Assembly (NCBI RefSeq): GCF_032714495.1
Contig: NZ_JAWDKB010000004.1
Location: forward strand, 1 to 64,000
Reading direction: 5' to 3'
DNA length: 64,000 nt
Origin: Methanorbis rubei
GTDB lineage: Archaea > Halobacteriota > Methanomicrobia > Methanomicrobiales > Methanocorpusculaceae
Shown: in pieces, positions 51,923 through 61,426 of the stretch
Numbering within the stretch: position 1 is the first letter of the stretch
Layout: every line of letters starts with the position of its first letter
Notes under the pieces: generated by a model
The model's database searches: none
What the model was told of the DNA's origin: nothing
The model's input: only the letters and a program-made list of their open reading frames with translations
Program-made: the position numbers and the translations under genes

Positions 51923-53893
51923 TTACCACTTTTCGGTGATGAAACGTTGACCATCTGTTTTGGGAACGTAATATGCCTGATTGATGCTGTTTGGTTTATC
52001 GGGAACAGTCTGAGCCACTTTTCCGATCGTAACCAGTGGTTTCAACGATTTTTTTGCCCAATCCCGAGTTTTTCCAAAAATAATGCTGAGCTCTGCGGCA
52101 GTCGTTTCGCTTCGTGAAGAGCAGATTTTCAGGATGAGTTCCTCTTTTTTTTCCGGAGTGATTCTTTGCCCGAGATTGAAAATTTCTTCTCTGAGAGATT
52201 CGGGTAAGGTTCTAAAGAGTTGCTGTCGTTCGCTATCTCCATCTTCCCCTAACAACTGGATGCGTTGTGGTAGTAACTGGGGTGATAAGCCGAAATCAGC
52301 GTTATTATCTACTTGCAACTGGATGCGTTGTGGCGATAACTGGGGTGATAAGCTGAAATCAGTGTTATTATCCAGATGTCGTTGTGGGAGAGTGTAGTAG
52401 GTTGCAGAACCATGAGAATGCTGAACGAGCAGTCCTTTCTCTCTAAGTTTTTTCAGAATGTTACTGGCTTTGAGAGTGTCATGCCCAGTGATATCCCGAC
52501 AGATTTCATTGGAAACATAGTCATATTTTTTCGCATACACCAAAATGCGGGACTCTTCGCTGGACAAATTTGCATCTTTAAAATGTTCCAGCCATTTCAT
52601 TGCATCTTCGTCCATGAGTTGATGAAGATACAGAATAGCACTAAAGGTGTTTTCAAATCTGTCTGATTGAAACACAGGAGGATCCTGATTGGCTTTTTTC
52701 ATGAAATCGCGAATTTTAGCAATACCAGTCCCCTTGTTTTCAGCGTATTCTGTTTCGTGTAAAACATCGGCAATGTTCGGATTTCGTGTTTTAGAACCAG
52801 GAGTTCCTATTTTGTCCAGAGACTTCAGTGAATACCCAGGATTATGAAATTCGATTCTATCCGCGAATCGGATGACAAGGGTTGGCCCTGAAACTTCGTA
52901 ATCCCGATGCATGACAGTATTAACCAAAACTTCACGAATAGCTTCGTAGGGGATAGGAGTCTGTTCAGATCGCGTGAGAGAACCCGATGGAAAAGAAAAC
53001 TCCCGTATCATGTCATCCATAATGGCAACTTCTGCCTTGGGGAGGAGAGTCATGAGCCCTTCACGCAGCTCAAGTGTGTAGTATTCACTCATTTCTTCTC
53101 CCCATTCACGCCCTTTTACTCGTAGATAATCCAATCGAGTCATGGGAAAATATTTTTTCAGAGCTTTTTCTGTTCCAAACAGGATGAGTCCAGAAACAGT
53201 TGGTCGTACTACTCCGTCAACAATTTTCGTGCAATGCAGTGCATCAAGAAGATCGCTGTCATTCAGCTGCAGTTCAGATGCGTTGGGTTTTCGTTTTGCT
53301 CGCAGCCTGCGATATTCGCTTATTGCATGAGGCTCAATATCCGCAAACGAGGTCCCTGAGATGATTGTTTCGTCGTAGGGCCGCATTTTGCGAAGGGTGT
53401 ATAAATACGCAGTATCAGTGTCAGTACAGAGTATGTCTCCTGAAGCATTCCGGCGATAGGCGGCAGTAATGATTTTTGGGTGGCTTTTCCCTCCAATTTT
53501 TTTCTCGAATGATATTGGTTTCAATCCATCAGGAGCTTCTTCAATAAAGACATCGATTACTACTTTTCCGTCAATTATGGTAGTTGCAACCTGAGGGCGA
53601 ATCTGGGAGGAGAAGATATTTGCACAGAGACTGTTGAGGTCATTTTGAAGTTTGTCAGGTTCGTTTACACCGGATGGATAGTATGCAGGTTTTTCAGGAT
53701 CATTCTGATGAGATACGCCAAGGAGGATATAGCCGCCACCGAGTCCTGGTTCATTGGAAAAAGCGCTTATGGTCTCTTTTATGGATTCTCCCAGTTGGTT
53801 GGTAACGCTTTTTGCTTCGATGCGGGTATGTTCGTCAAGAGTGTTGAGTTCTTCGAAGAGTTGCTGAATATCTGTGTCCCGAATATATCCCAT
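51923..53893 (-). CDS. AlbA_2/Schlafen-like DNA-binding protein with GHKL-type ATPase region
   Basis: A 656-residue protein. The N-terminal 150 residues form an AlbA_2 (Schlafen AAA_4) domain: EARIEAKSVTNQLG-like start (HTRIEAKSV), YILLGVSHQND and AAYRRNASGD. Residues about 305-420 resemble the RecG-like/HATPase_c_4 region (YEAIREVLVNTVMHRDY, NKGTGIAKIRDFMKKAN). The C-terminal part is winged-helix-like, including KASNILKKLREKGLL. A 63-base tandem duplication near residues 505-546 repeats NNTDFSLSPQLSPQRIQLQ as NNADFGLSPQLLPQRIQLL. Such proteins are scattered in accessory regions and are suspected transcription regulators or defence proteins. Confidence 0.8.
   Translation of the reverse strand: MGYIRDTDIQQLFEELNTLDEHTRIEAKSVTNQLGESIKETISAFSNEPGLGGGYILLGVSHQNDPEKPAYYPSGVNEPDKLQNDLNSLCANIFSSQIRPQVATTIIDGKVVIDVFIEEAPDGLKPISFEKKIGGKSHPKIITAAYRRNASGDILCTDTDTAYLYTLRKMRPYDETIISGTSFADIEPHAISEYRRLRAKRKPNASELQLNDSDLLDALHCTKIVDGVVRPTVSGLILFGTEKALKKYFPMTRLDYLRVKGREWGEEMSEYYTLELREGLMTLLPKAEVAIMDDMIREFSFPSGSLTRSEQTPIPYEAIREVLVNTVMHRDYEVSGPTLVIRFADRIEFHNPGYSLKSLDKIGTPGSKTRNPNIADVLHETEYAENKGTGIAKIRDFMKKANQDPPVFQSDRFENTFSAILYLHQLMDEDAMKWLEHFKDANLSSEESRILVYAKKYDYVSNEICRDITGHDTLKASNILKKLREKGLLVQHSHGSATYYTLPQRHLDNNTDFSLSPQLSPQRIQLQVDNNADFGLSPQLLPQRIQLLGEDGDSERQQLFRTLPESLREEIFNLGQRITPEKKEELILKICSSRSETTAAELSIIFGKTRDWAKKSLKPLVTIGKVAQTVPDKPNSINQAYYVPKTDGQRFITEKW
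52253..52378. repeat. Tandem 63-base duplication inside the AlbA_2 gene
   Basis: Units 52253-52315 and 52316-52378 start CAACTGGATGCGTTGTGG and differ at several positions. The unit is a multiple of three, so the reading frame is kept and 21 residues are doubled. Confidence 0.85.
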
Positions 53894-54733: not shown

Positions 54734-55009
54734 ATGACGAAAACCTCCTCACTCAGCATTCGCGTCGAGACGGAAACAAAAGACAAAGCCGAAGCCGTAT
54801 GCAAAGAGCTGGGAACAAATCTGTCCAACGCGGTCAACATCTTCCTCGCCTCACTCGTCCGCTGCAATGGATTTCCCTTTGAACTCAAAATAGAAACGTC
54901 CAATGAGGAAACCATGCAGGCGATGCAGGAAGCGCGAAAAATTTCCCGCGAAAGATCTGCAAAACGATACAAAAATGCGGATGACCTGATCAAAGACCTG
55001 CTGGACTGA
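54734..55009 (+). CDS. RelB/DinJ-family antitoxin
   Basis: A 91-residue protein. The N-terminal half SLSIRVETETKDKAEAVCKELGTNLSNAVNIFL is a ribbon-helix-helix DNA-binding domain of the RelB/DinJ type; the C-terminal half (about 50-91) is charged and helical and would wrap the toxin. It lies three bases before the YafQ-like toxin, the usual antitoxin-first order. Upstream TATA-like sequence (ACTATACATAAC near 54710) provides a promoter that the complex would repress. Confidence 0.88.
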   Translation: MTKTSSLSIRVETETKDKAEAVCKELGTNLSNAVNIFLASLVRCNGFPFELKIETSNEETMQAMQEARKISRERSAKRYKNADDLIKDLLD

Positions 55010-55012
55010 CGC

Positions 55013-55285
55013 ATGTATGAAATAACGGTAACCAGCAGATTCAAAAAAGATATAAAAAATCTCAGAAAACGCGGATACGACATCTCTCTTCTGAAAAATG
55101 TCATAGAGATTCTCGCACTGGGAGAGAAACTTCCGAAAAACTACTATGATCACGGGCTGAACGGTGAATGGTCGGACTTTCGCGAGTGCCACATTCAGCC
55201 TGACTGGATACTCATCTATCGGATAGACGAGGAGATTCTCATTCTCGCACTGACAAGGACCGGCACCCACAGCGATCTTTTTTGA
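55013..55285 (+). CDS. YafQ-family type II toxin, mRNA interferase
   Basis: A 90-residue RelE-superfamily toxin: SRFKKDIKNLRKRGYD near the N terminus, then NYYDHGLNGEWSDFRECHIQPDWILIYRID and the end TRTGTHSDLF. Residues expected for YafQ catalysis are present: H in YYDHGL, H in RECHIQPDW with D and W, and H in TGTHSDLF. These toxins cut mRNA on the ribosome. Paired with the antitoxin three bases upstream. Confidence 0.9.
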   Translation: MYEITVTSRFKKDIKNLRKRGYDISLLKNVIEILALGEKLPKNYYDHGLNGEWSDFRECHIQPDWILIYRIDEEILILALTRTGTHSDLF

Positions 55286-58052: not shown

Positions 58053-58544
58053 ATGCGGGTCTATATATACGGAGAAACGGTCCTGTCCGCCGGATGCACG
58101 CCGGTCGATGCAATAACGCCGGAACTGCTGCTGCAGCTGGAAGAGATGGTACCTTTCATGCGAAACAGCCGCGGCGTCGGACTTGCCGCACCGCAGGTCG
58201 GCGTCCCTCAACGGTTTTTTGTGATGGATGCAGGCGACAAACTCCGCAAAGTGATCAATCCCGAGATACTTTCATCCGGCAACTCCACATCTGAGATGGA
58301 GGAGGGATGTCTCTCGATACCGGGCGTTCACAAGAAAGTCAGACGGCCGAAGCGGATCATGGTTCGGTATCAGAACGAGACAGGGGAGACGGTCGAAGAG
58401 GAGCTGAAGGATTTTCCGGCACGGGTGTTTCAGCATGAGTACGATCATCTGGACGGGGTTCTGTTCGTCGACCGGCTGACGCCGATCGCACGCAAGATGG
58501 TAGCCCGCGATCTGGAGCGGCTTGCCGGGGAGAAGACCGAATGA
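58053..58544 (+). CDS. def: Peptide deformylase
   Basis: A 163-residue metallo-hydrolase that removes the formyl group from N-terminal formylmethionine. All three family motifs are intact: GVGLAAPQ (residues 41-48), EGCLS (84-88, metal ligand C86) and HEYDH (128-132, metal ligands H128 and H132 and catalytic E129). ATG 58053 gives the standard start MRVYIYGETVLSAGCTPV. Peptide deformylase is a bacterial and organellar enzyme, and archaea normally initiate with unformylated methionine, so this is unusual. It overlaps fmt by four bases, so both are made from one transcript. Confidence 0.93.
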   Translation: MRVYIYGETVLSAGCTPVDAITPELLLQLEEMVPFMRNSRGVGLAAPQVGVPQRFFVMDAGDKLRKVINPEILSSGNSTSEMEEGCLSIPGVHKKVRRPKRIMVRYQNETGETVEEELKDFPARVFQHEYDHLDGVLFVDRLTPIARKMVARDLERLAGEKTE

Positions 58545-59473
58545 GAGTTCTGTTTATGGGGACGCCTGCGTATGCGGTTCCGGCTCTTGAGGCGGTCGCG
58601 GCTGATCATGAGATTGTCGGAGTGGTGACAAGGGTGGACAAGCCGAACCGACGCGGGAACAAGATTGTTTTTTCGCCGGTGAAGGAATATGCGCTCGCGC
58701 ATGATATTCCAATCTTTCAGCCTGAGTCGATGAGGGATCCGCAGTTATTCACGGATCTTGCGGCGCTGCATGCTGATATCGGCGTGGTGGTGGCGTTTGG
58801 CATGATGATTCCTGATGAGATCATCAATCTGCCGCCGCAGAAGATCATCAATATTCACGGCTCTCTGCTGCCCCGCTACCGCGGCGCTGCACCGATGCAG
58901 TACTCGGTGCTGAACGGGGATGAGGAGGCGGGAGTGTCGATCATGTACATCACAAAGGACCTGGATGCAGGGGACGTGATTCTCTCAAAGTCCCTTGCAG
59001 TAGGAGATGATGAGACGTTTGGGGAGCTGCATGACCGGCTTGCTGCCCTCGGGGCCGAAGCGCTGATTGAGGCGCTGGAGAGAGTTTCGTCCGGGGAGGT
59101 TTGCGCAACGCCGCAGGATCATGCGAAGGCGACGTTTGCTCCGTCGATCACAAAGGAGGAGTGTGTGATTGACTGGTTGATGCCTGCAAGGATGATTCAT
59201 AACCGGATTCGCGGACTGTCACCGGCACCGTGTGCGAACACGAGGCTTCCTGACGGAAAACGGCTGCTGGTCTACCGGAGCGAGCGAGTGTTCGGGGAGT
59301 ATGCAGGGGAGCCCGGGCAGGTGGTGGACGCTCTGAAACGAAAGGGACCGGTGGTGATGACCGGAGACGGGGCTTTGTGTATTCTGTCGGCGAAACCGGA
59401 AGGAAAGAAGGAGATGCCCGGGTTTGAACTGGTGAACGGGCATTACCTGAGTGTCGGGGACAGATTTGGGTAA
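58541..59473 (+). CDS. fmt: Methionyl-tRNA formyltransferase
   Basis: A 310-residue full-length Fmt, which formylates initiator methionyl-tRNA. The catalytic set is N104 and H106 (INIHGSLLPRYRGAAP) and D142 (LDAGD). The loop VVTRVDKPNRRGNKIVFSPVK (residues about 28-48) matches the basic tRNA-recognition loop of E. coli Fmt. The C-terminal tRNA-binding domain is present from about 205 (ITKEECVIDWLMPA, HNRIRGLSPAP). The usual donor, 10-formyl-tetrahydrofolate, is not the main C1 carrier of methanogens, so the donor is an open question. It is coupled to def by an ATGA overlap. Confidence 0.92.
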   Translation: MRVLFMGTPAYAVPALEAVAADHEIVGVVTRVDKPNRRGNKIVFSPVKEYALAHDIPIFQPESMRDPQLFTDLAALHADIGVVVAFGMMIPDEIINLPPQKIINIHGSLLPRYRGAAPMQYSVLNGDEEAGVSIMYITKDLDAGDVILSKSLAVGDDETFGELHDRLAALGAEALIEALERVSSGEVCATPQDHAKATFAPSITKEECVIDWLMPARMIHNRIRGLSPAPCANTRLPDGKRLLVYRSERVFGEYAGEPGQVVDALKRKGPVVMTGDGALCILSAKPEGKKEMPGFELVNGHYLSVGDRFG

Positions 59474-59697: not shown

Positions 59698-60537
59698 TCA
59701 TATACCTTCTGTCTCCCCCTGACACGTAGGGCAATAGACACAGCTCCGTCCTGCAATTACAGTTTTACAAAGAAGCTCTCCGCATATCGGACAAGGCTTA
59801 TCATCATTTCCATAAACACGTAGGAACGGTGTGTTGCGGTACTCCTGTCCCTTGCCTTGCAAGTACTCTTCCGGCGTGACGGCATTTTTCTCGATGAAAT
59901 AGATCAGTACTTCCGAAATTTTTGAAATCAACCGCTGCCATTCATCGATGATCAGAGTGTTTGCCGGACGTTTGGGGAGCAACTTTGCAGCAAACAGAAT
60001 TTCATCAGAATAAATGTTGCCAATGCCAGCTATTGCACTTTGATCAAGCAGACATTCTTTGATGGACTTTCTCCTTGTACCAAAACGATCTTTCAAATAT
60101 TCGGAGGTAAGACGGCGGTCAAACGGCTCAAGCCCCAATTTATCTATGCCGCTGTAGCTGTCTGTTTCTCCATTTTGGAAAAACCAAAAACGTCCAAAAC
60201 GGCGTGTATCGGAAAATCGGATTTCGTTGCCGTTATCAAGCTCAAAGACGATATGCGTGTGTTTCTCTGCCGGATAATCAGACGGAGTGACCAATAAGCA
60301 ACCTGTCATACGCAGATGCAGCGTGAAACTATCACCGCTCTCCAAAAGAACGGTCAAAAATTTTCCACGCCGGTTCACATCACATATTTTTTGTCCGGCA
60401 AGCCGTTTACAAAACTCGCCAGCTGTCGGATACGCGATGACTTCGGGACGCTTGACGGTCAGCGTCTTAATCGTCGCATCTTTCATCTGCGGCAGAAGAA
60501 CACGTTTAATTGTTTCAATCTCCGGCAGCTCGGGCAT
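59698..60537 (-). CDS. mutM: Formamidopyrimidine-DNA glycosylase
   Basis: A 279-residue Fpg/MutM, a bifunctional glycosylase and AP lyase that removes oxidised purines. The start PELPEIETIKRVL supplies the catalytic proline (after Met removal) and glutamate; LLDQSAIAGIGNIYSDEILF is the helix-two-turn-helix; CPICGELLCKTVIAGRSC and CPTCQ form the zinc finger. ATG 60537 overlaps the upstream gene by 23 bases. Fpg is uncommon in archaea, and codon choice and neighbours suggest acquisition from Clostridia-like bacteria. Confidence 0.92.
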   Translation of the reverse strand: MPELPEIETIKRVLLPQMKDATIKTLTVKRPEVIAYPTAGEFCKRLAGQKICDVNRRGKFLTVLLESGDSFTLHLRMTGCLLVTPSDYPAEKHTHIVFELDNGNEIRFSDTRRFGRFWFFQNGETDSYSGIDKLGLEPFDRRLTSEYLKDRFGTRRKSIKECLLDQSAIAGIGNIYSDEILFAAKLLPKRPANTLIIDEWQRLISKISEVLIYFIEKNAVTPEEYLQGKGQEYRNTPFLRVYGNDDKPCPICGELLCKTVIAGRSCVYCPTCQGETEGI

Positions 60538-61426
60538 GGCGTTCCCCCTCCTTTCTCGCAGATTTTTTGATTTGTTCATGATAAAAGAAATTGACGATAA
60601 CAGGCGGAACATCAATGGTTCTTGTCATGCTGTCGTCATTTGTCACATAGTCAAGCCCGATTTCAGCAGCATATGCTTGTAACTCGGCATCAAGAAGCTT
60701 CCAGTATCGATGATCATTTTGATTGTAGATTTCCCGATATAAAGGCAGAAGTTTAGGATATTTTTGCTGAATATACTCCATAATGACTGACTTGTAGCTA
60801 CCGCGCAGATTAAGATTCTCCAGCCAAATAAGATTACATTGCCCCTTAACCTGCACAATGATCTCCTTTACATCGGTGATTCCCGGAAATATCGGGGAAA
60901 TGAAACAGGTGGTGCGTATGCCTGCGGAGTGAAATGCTTTCATAGCGGCGAGCCGCCTCTCAATGGAAACGGCTTCATCCATATCTGACTGAAAATTTTC
61001 GTCCAGTGTGTTGATTGACCATGAAACACGGGCATCAGGAAACGATTTGATCAGTTCCAAATCCCGCAGCACCAAATCCGATTTGGTGGCTATGCTGATT
61101 TTTGCCCCGCTGCCGACAAGCTGCTCCAGCAGTGCCCTTGTGCGCCCGTACTGTTCTTCATAGGGGTGATAAGGGTCAGTTACCGAGCCGATGAAAATTT
61201 CCTTGCCTGCATATTTTTGCGGGTTTTTGATTTCGGGCCAGTGTTTCACATCAAGAAAGCTGCCCCACGGCTCAGGGTGATGCGTGAACCGTTTCATAAA
61301 AGAGGCATAACAGTATTTGCAGGCATGGGGGCAGCCGACATAAGGGTTGGCCGAGTAGTCGCACACCGGCAGATTGGACTTGGATATCACATCCTTGGTT
61401 TCGATGGGCTTGATCTCCATATCCAT
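60515..61426 (-). CDS. Radical SAM protein of the spore photoproduct lyase-like (SPL) family
   Basis: A 303-residue radical SAM protein. The cluster motif is GCPHACKYCYASFM (near residue 31), preceded by VCDYSANPYVG; later FIGSVTDPYHPYEEQYGRTR and ISIATKSDLVLRDLELI follow. This matches the SPL-related group often annotated as Rv2578c-like, which has no proven substrate. In the cluster it sits between DUF1848 and Fpg, so DNA repair is an attractive but unproven idea. A second ATG two codons downstream is an alternative start. Confidence 0.85.
   Translation of the reverse strand: MDMEIKPIETKDVISKSNLPVCDYSANPYVGCPHACKYCYASFMKRFTHHPEPWGSFLDVKHWPEIKNPQKYAGKEIFIGSVTDPYHPYEEQYGRTRALLEQLVGSGAKISIATKSDLVLRDLELIKSFPDARVSWSINTLDENFQSDMDEAVSIERRLAAMKAFHSAGIRTTCFISPIFPGITDVKEIIVQVKGQCNLIWLENLNLRGSYKSVIMEYIQQKYPKLLPLYREIYNQNDHRYWKLLDAELQAYAAEIGLDYVTNDDSMTRTIDVPPVIVNFFYHEQIKKSARKEGERHARAAGD

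Follow-up and report, generated by a model that had tools for sequence, protein, structure and literature searches.

A bacterial-type peptide deformylase and formyltransferase gene pair kept by the archaeal family Methanocorpusculaceae

The window, a stretch of 64,000 nucleotides on a 260,580-base contig of a Methanorbis rubei genome (1.83 Mb in total), contains the gene of a canonical peptide deformylase (Def1) and, overlapping its end, that of a methionyl-tRNA formyltransferase (Fmt) (Table 1). The two form an operon, likely with translational coupling through the overlap.

Table 1. Features of the def1-fmt locus (window positions)
Feature	Position	Strand	Details
def1, canonical peptide deformylase, 163 aa	58053..58544	+	codons 58053-58541, stop 58542-58544; motifs GVGLAAPQ / EGCLS / HEYDH
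fmt, methionyl-tRNA formyltransferase, 310 aa	58541..59473	+	N104/H106/D142, tRNA-loop R38, C-terminal tRNA-binding domain ~203-301
ATGA overlap, def1 stop and fmt start	58541..58544	+	sequence

Regarding the identity of the two proteins, Def1 scored 169 bits against PF01327 (cut-off 22.8) and 142.6 bits against TIGR00079 (cut-off 103.95), and Fmt reached 289.5 bits with the curated equivalog TIGR00460 (cut-off 201.5), with 133.8 bits for Formyl_trans_N and 76 bits for Formyl_trans_C (PF02911, residues 203-301). The next specific families for Fmt, the ArnA and sugar formyltransferase profiles, stayed far under their own cut-offs, and the closest solved structures were bacterial Fmts, at 201-232 bits, with ArnA at 123 bits; profile scores thus speak strongly for Fmt over the sugar formyltransferases, the Fmt tree having contained Fmts alone. 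R38 corresponds to the tRNA-loop arginine R42 of E. coli and is invariant across the genus alignment; the archaeal Fmt retains 32 of the 38 residues invariant in bacterial Fmts, and the archaeal Def1 set 24 of the 26 invariant in bacterial deformylases. A chance origin of the open reading frames is excluded because they are conserved over about 20 species. Profile scores, motifs and overlap all bear out the original prediction of an intact, overlapping pair with every catalytic motif. Gene pair, gene order and catalytic motifs are those of the bacterial def-fmt operon (E. coli, Clostridia), whose nearest Fmts have 37-44% identity to the archaeal one; here, instead, the host is an archaeon, the initiator tRNA carries an A1:U72 pair and the initiation factors are archaeal.

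As for the surroundings, a MutM-type formamidopyrimidine-DNA glycosylase gene lies beside fmt on the opposite strand (window 59698-60615); the window also encodes a Schlafen/AlbA_2 protein with a RecG-C-terminal-like part (51923-53893) and a RelB-type antitoxin with a YafQ-type toxin (54734-55285). Elsewhere, an ARAGORN tmRNA call at L053 1030-1575 ends on a tRNA-Val gene and is probably a false positive.

The host group, counted here as the genus, is Methanocorpusculaceae (Methanocorpusculum, Methanorbis and relatives), represented by the window genome and 24 others; 12 of these 25 genomes are at least 90% complete. Def occurs in 24 of the 25 and full-length Fmt in 22 of the 24 others, the two misses being genomes of 61% and 73% completeness; def and fmt are present in virtually all genomes of the group that are adequately complete, two single-contig ones (G015 and G017, 1.80 and 1.76 Mb) among them. 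Fmt at cut-off was found neither in the sister genus (8 genomes) nor in the remainder of the order, and in a sample of 393 genomes from a single phylum the 9 of this genus were the only ones above it. The control archaea (M. jannaschii, H. volcanii, S. acidocaldarius and M. acetivorans) had no Fmt over cut-off and no Def. The pair is also present in the rumen methanogen Methanomicrobium mobile BP, with 67% and 63% identity for def1 and fmt, on a contig that also bears mtrA/mtrH-like methanogen genes (named from a reading of the translations). The locus had been read as a possible local acquisition beside a decaying mobile element; the pair is instead genus-wide, old and shared with M. mobile.

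In the Fmt tree (84 rows), the archaeal genes form one clade (100/100) that adjoins Oscillospiraceae and other Clostridia (94/85), many of them from gut samples, and whose stem is long, 0.86 changes per site. This single clade beside Clostridia supports one old bacterial acquisition; a bacterial origin of the pair is well supported by these sequences, and the donor was probably clostridial. Between species, dN/dS was 0.01-0.14 for fmt and 0.03-0.16 for def1, and neither gene had internal stops; genus-wide presence, tree and low dN/dS together uphold the earlier view that the genes were acquired from bacteria and kept by selection. A transfer from Methanocorpusculaceae to M. mobile is one possible reading, as the M. 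mobile gene is nested within the Methanocorpusculaceae clade (95/94, then 97/95), but a sister position also passes the AU test (p 0.147).

A second deformylase, Def2, accompanies Def1: two deformylase matches occur in 21 of the 25 genus genomes, with def2 located away from def1-fmt (in the window genome at G000 C2:247779; L119). In Def2, motif II reads EGSPC in place of EGCLS, with replacement of the metal-binding Cys, in all 15 aligned genus copies; motif I carries two fixed changes (G to C and A to S) in the same 15 copies, and motif III retains HExDH. M. mobile has Def2 as well, also with EGSPC. Def1 and Def2 group as sister clades (98/92), which suggests that the second arose as a paralogue of the first, the acquired gene; with a between-species dN/dS of 0.04-0.14 and no internal stops, Def2 looks to have lost the canonical metal ligand and yet to remain under selection, and with its metal site altered it may have another catalytic role or none. 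Substitutions in motifs I and II are known from the type 3 peptide deformylases of archaea and protists (PMC12690207), which Def2 resembles in kind; it differs in being sister to the canonical archaeal Def1 and not to the stand-alone divergent deformylases of other families in the phylum. Such stand-alone homologues, with an altered motif II (e.g., WDSCYSF), were seen in G228, G287, G313, G159, G054 and G049 (L258-L261, L223, L224), and the sampled archaea that carry them had no Fmt over cut-off.

Regarding the formyl donor, formate-THF ligase (Fhs, PF01268) was over cut-off in 19 of the 25 genus genomes, among them each of the 12 with at least 90% completeness (in the window genome at G000 C9:28389-30047; L226), and in none of the 36 other genomes of the order, whereas for FolD (PF02882) the picture was inverted: all 36 passed the cut-off and none of the 25 did. 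The original prediction had set out from methanogens using tetrahydromethanopterin rather than folate as main C1 carrier; that premise needs restating, since this genus has formate-THF ligase and no FolD, opposite to the other members of the order. From this enzyme complement, formate appears to be the source of 10-formyl-THF in the genus. The swap is a clade-level correlation and may reflect one event. In M. mobile FolD is present and Fhs is lacking, which makes def-fmt independent of the swap and led to rejection of dependence on Fhs as a general rule; the pair, if it works, would work with either formyl supply.

The chromosomal initiator tRNA (L051) has A1:U72, G2:C71, C3:G70, G4:C69, A73 and three G:C pairs in the anticodon stem, besides G11:C24 (own numbering). 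It matches the initiator of nearly all Fmt-less relatives at 93-99%, and these too have A1:U72; an unpaired or mismatched 1:72, raised earlier as a mark to look for, was found in neither the genus nor its relatives. A bacterial-type chromosomal initiator was likewise rejected: of the genome's three CAT tRNA genes, all of them read, the initiator carries A1:U72, and no other tRNA gene has this anticodon. For E. coli Fmt the 1:72 mismatch is the major determinant, A73, G2:C71, C3:G70 and G4:C69 being minor ones (PMC9976931). All four minor determinants are present in the archaeal initiator. Initiators that carry A1:U72, from eukaryotes and from archaea, have been reported to be formylated by E. 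coli Fmt in vitro. The lack of formylation in archaea has been put down to the loss of tRNA recognition elements (PMC9976931). As for initiation factors, bacterial IF2 (TIGR00487) was over cut-off in none of 31 genomes, so any fMet-tRNAi would go through aIF2/aIF5B. Archaeal aIF2 favours A1-U72 and uses the esterified methionine for recognition (PMC6412873); because of this recognition of the methionyl group, fMet-tRNAi might be a poor ligand.

The best explanation, and a reasonably probable one, is a formylation cycle in which Fmt acts on part of the initiator Met-tRNA and Def1 deformylates the products. An ancestor of Methanocorpusculaceae would have gained the def-fmt operon from a bacterium, most likely a Clostridia-like one of the gut, and the pair would now be a fixed, selected part of the family's gene set, present also in M. 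mobile. Fmt would draw on 10-formyl-tetrahydrofolate, which comes from formate-THF ligase in the genus and through FolD in M. mobile, and with it formylate some of the initiator Met-tRNA, whose archaeal A1:U72 pair is retained; Def1 would then take the formyl group off nascent chains with release of formate, and methionine aminopeptidase would act as usual. That Met-tRNAi is formylated in the cell and that fMet-tRNAi passes through aIF2/aIF5B are steps that we infer, the second with least certainty. The whole picture has about an even chance of holding: part or all of the proteins of an archaeal family would begin with fMet on an unaltered A1:U72 tRNA through aIF2/aIF5B, a hybrid initiation in which Def1 and formate-THF ligase recycle formate and a Def paralogue lacking the canonical metal Cys has a new function.

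Doubt about formylation of Met-tRNAi arises because the major determinant, an unpaired 1:72, is absent and no bacterial IF2 is over cut-off. The main rival is a repurposed pair, in which Fmt would formylate another acceptor (another aminoacyl-tRNA, a peptide or a metabolite), Def1 would reverse or edit this modification and protein starts would stay unformylated Met. The unchanged A1:U72 initiator, the purely archaeal initiation factors, the long stem of the archaeal Fmt clade and the functional divergence that Def2 shows within the deformylase family all fit such a change; Fmt, however, retains N104/H106/D142, R38 and the C-terminal tRNA-binding domain, Def1 has kept nearly all of its invariant residues, and the pair is still an overlapping operon, as in bacteria. 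The conserved residues favour the ordinary function on Met-tRNAi over another substrate, and repurposing is judged unlikely.

Formylation could also be conditional or partial, occurring only in states set by stress or by how abundant formate or 10-formyl-THF is, and marking a protein subset or regulating initiation, which is a still less likely reading. The weak determinant set left by A1:U72 predicts slow formylation, and the genus-wide Fhs links formyl supply to formate; M. mobile, however, has def-fmt without Fhs, so the link to formate does not extend to all carriers of the pair. A review reports stress-induced, Fmt1/MTFMT-dependent fMet in the eukaryotic cytosol, where initiators also have A1:U72 (PMC13234167). 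That system likewise combines a bacterial-type Fmt, such an initiator and eIF2-type initiation; there, however, the enzyme is an organelle protein mislocalised under stress, and here it is the product of a resident gene with its own deformylase. Finally, contamination, misassembly or a recent neutral gain, suggested by the clearly bacterial type of the pair and by an upstream window ORF without a Pfam match, is ruled out for practical purposes by genus-wide presence, occurrence in complete genomes, low dN/dS and the mtrA/mtrH-like neighbours in M. mobile.

Archaea are described in a 2026 review as having no FMT and as starting with unmodified Met-tRNAi (PMC13234167). The enzymes themselves are known; what is new, against current reviews, is how settled they are in an archaeal family, which has long kept and selected both on an ordinary archaeal initiator tRNA. 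No paper pairing deformylase with Methanocorpusculum was found, the search having covered literature outside subscription, and within that literature the pair is not already well described in this genus. The family offers a natural experiment on three questions: can initiation by aIF2/aIF5B tolerate or use formylation, is a mismatch at 1:72 required, and do deformylase inhibitors affect these methanogens? Because they carry the enzyme pair under strong selection, these gut-dwelling methanogens are directly testable for formylated protein starts.

As a minor observation, some Fmt-bearing archaea have an extra initiator-like tRNA-Met(CAT) with U1:A72 in place of A1:U72 (L230/L271 and L231/L272 in G018, L232/L273 in G017). 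Similar matches in Fmt-less genera proved to be tRNA-Arg and tRNA-Lys, and one degenerate pattern for a viral U1:A72 initiator-like tRNA gave no match in IMG/VR. In two cases these tRNAs lie 2-3 nt from tRNA-Ser/Cys/Thr, and their surroundings include a phage packaging/terminase-family gene and, in L271, also an integrase-family gene; the U1:A72 variants are apparently provirus-borne.
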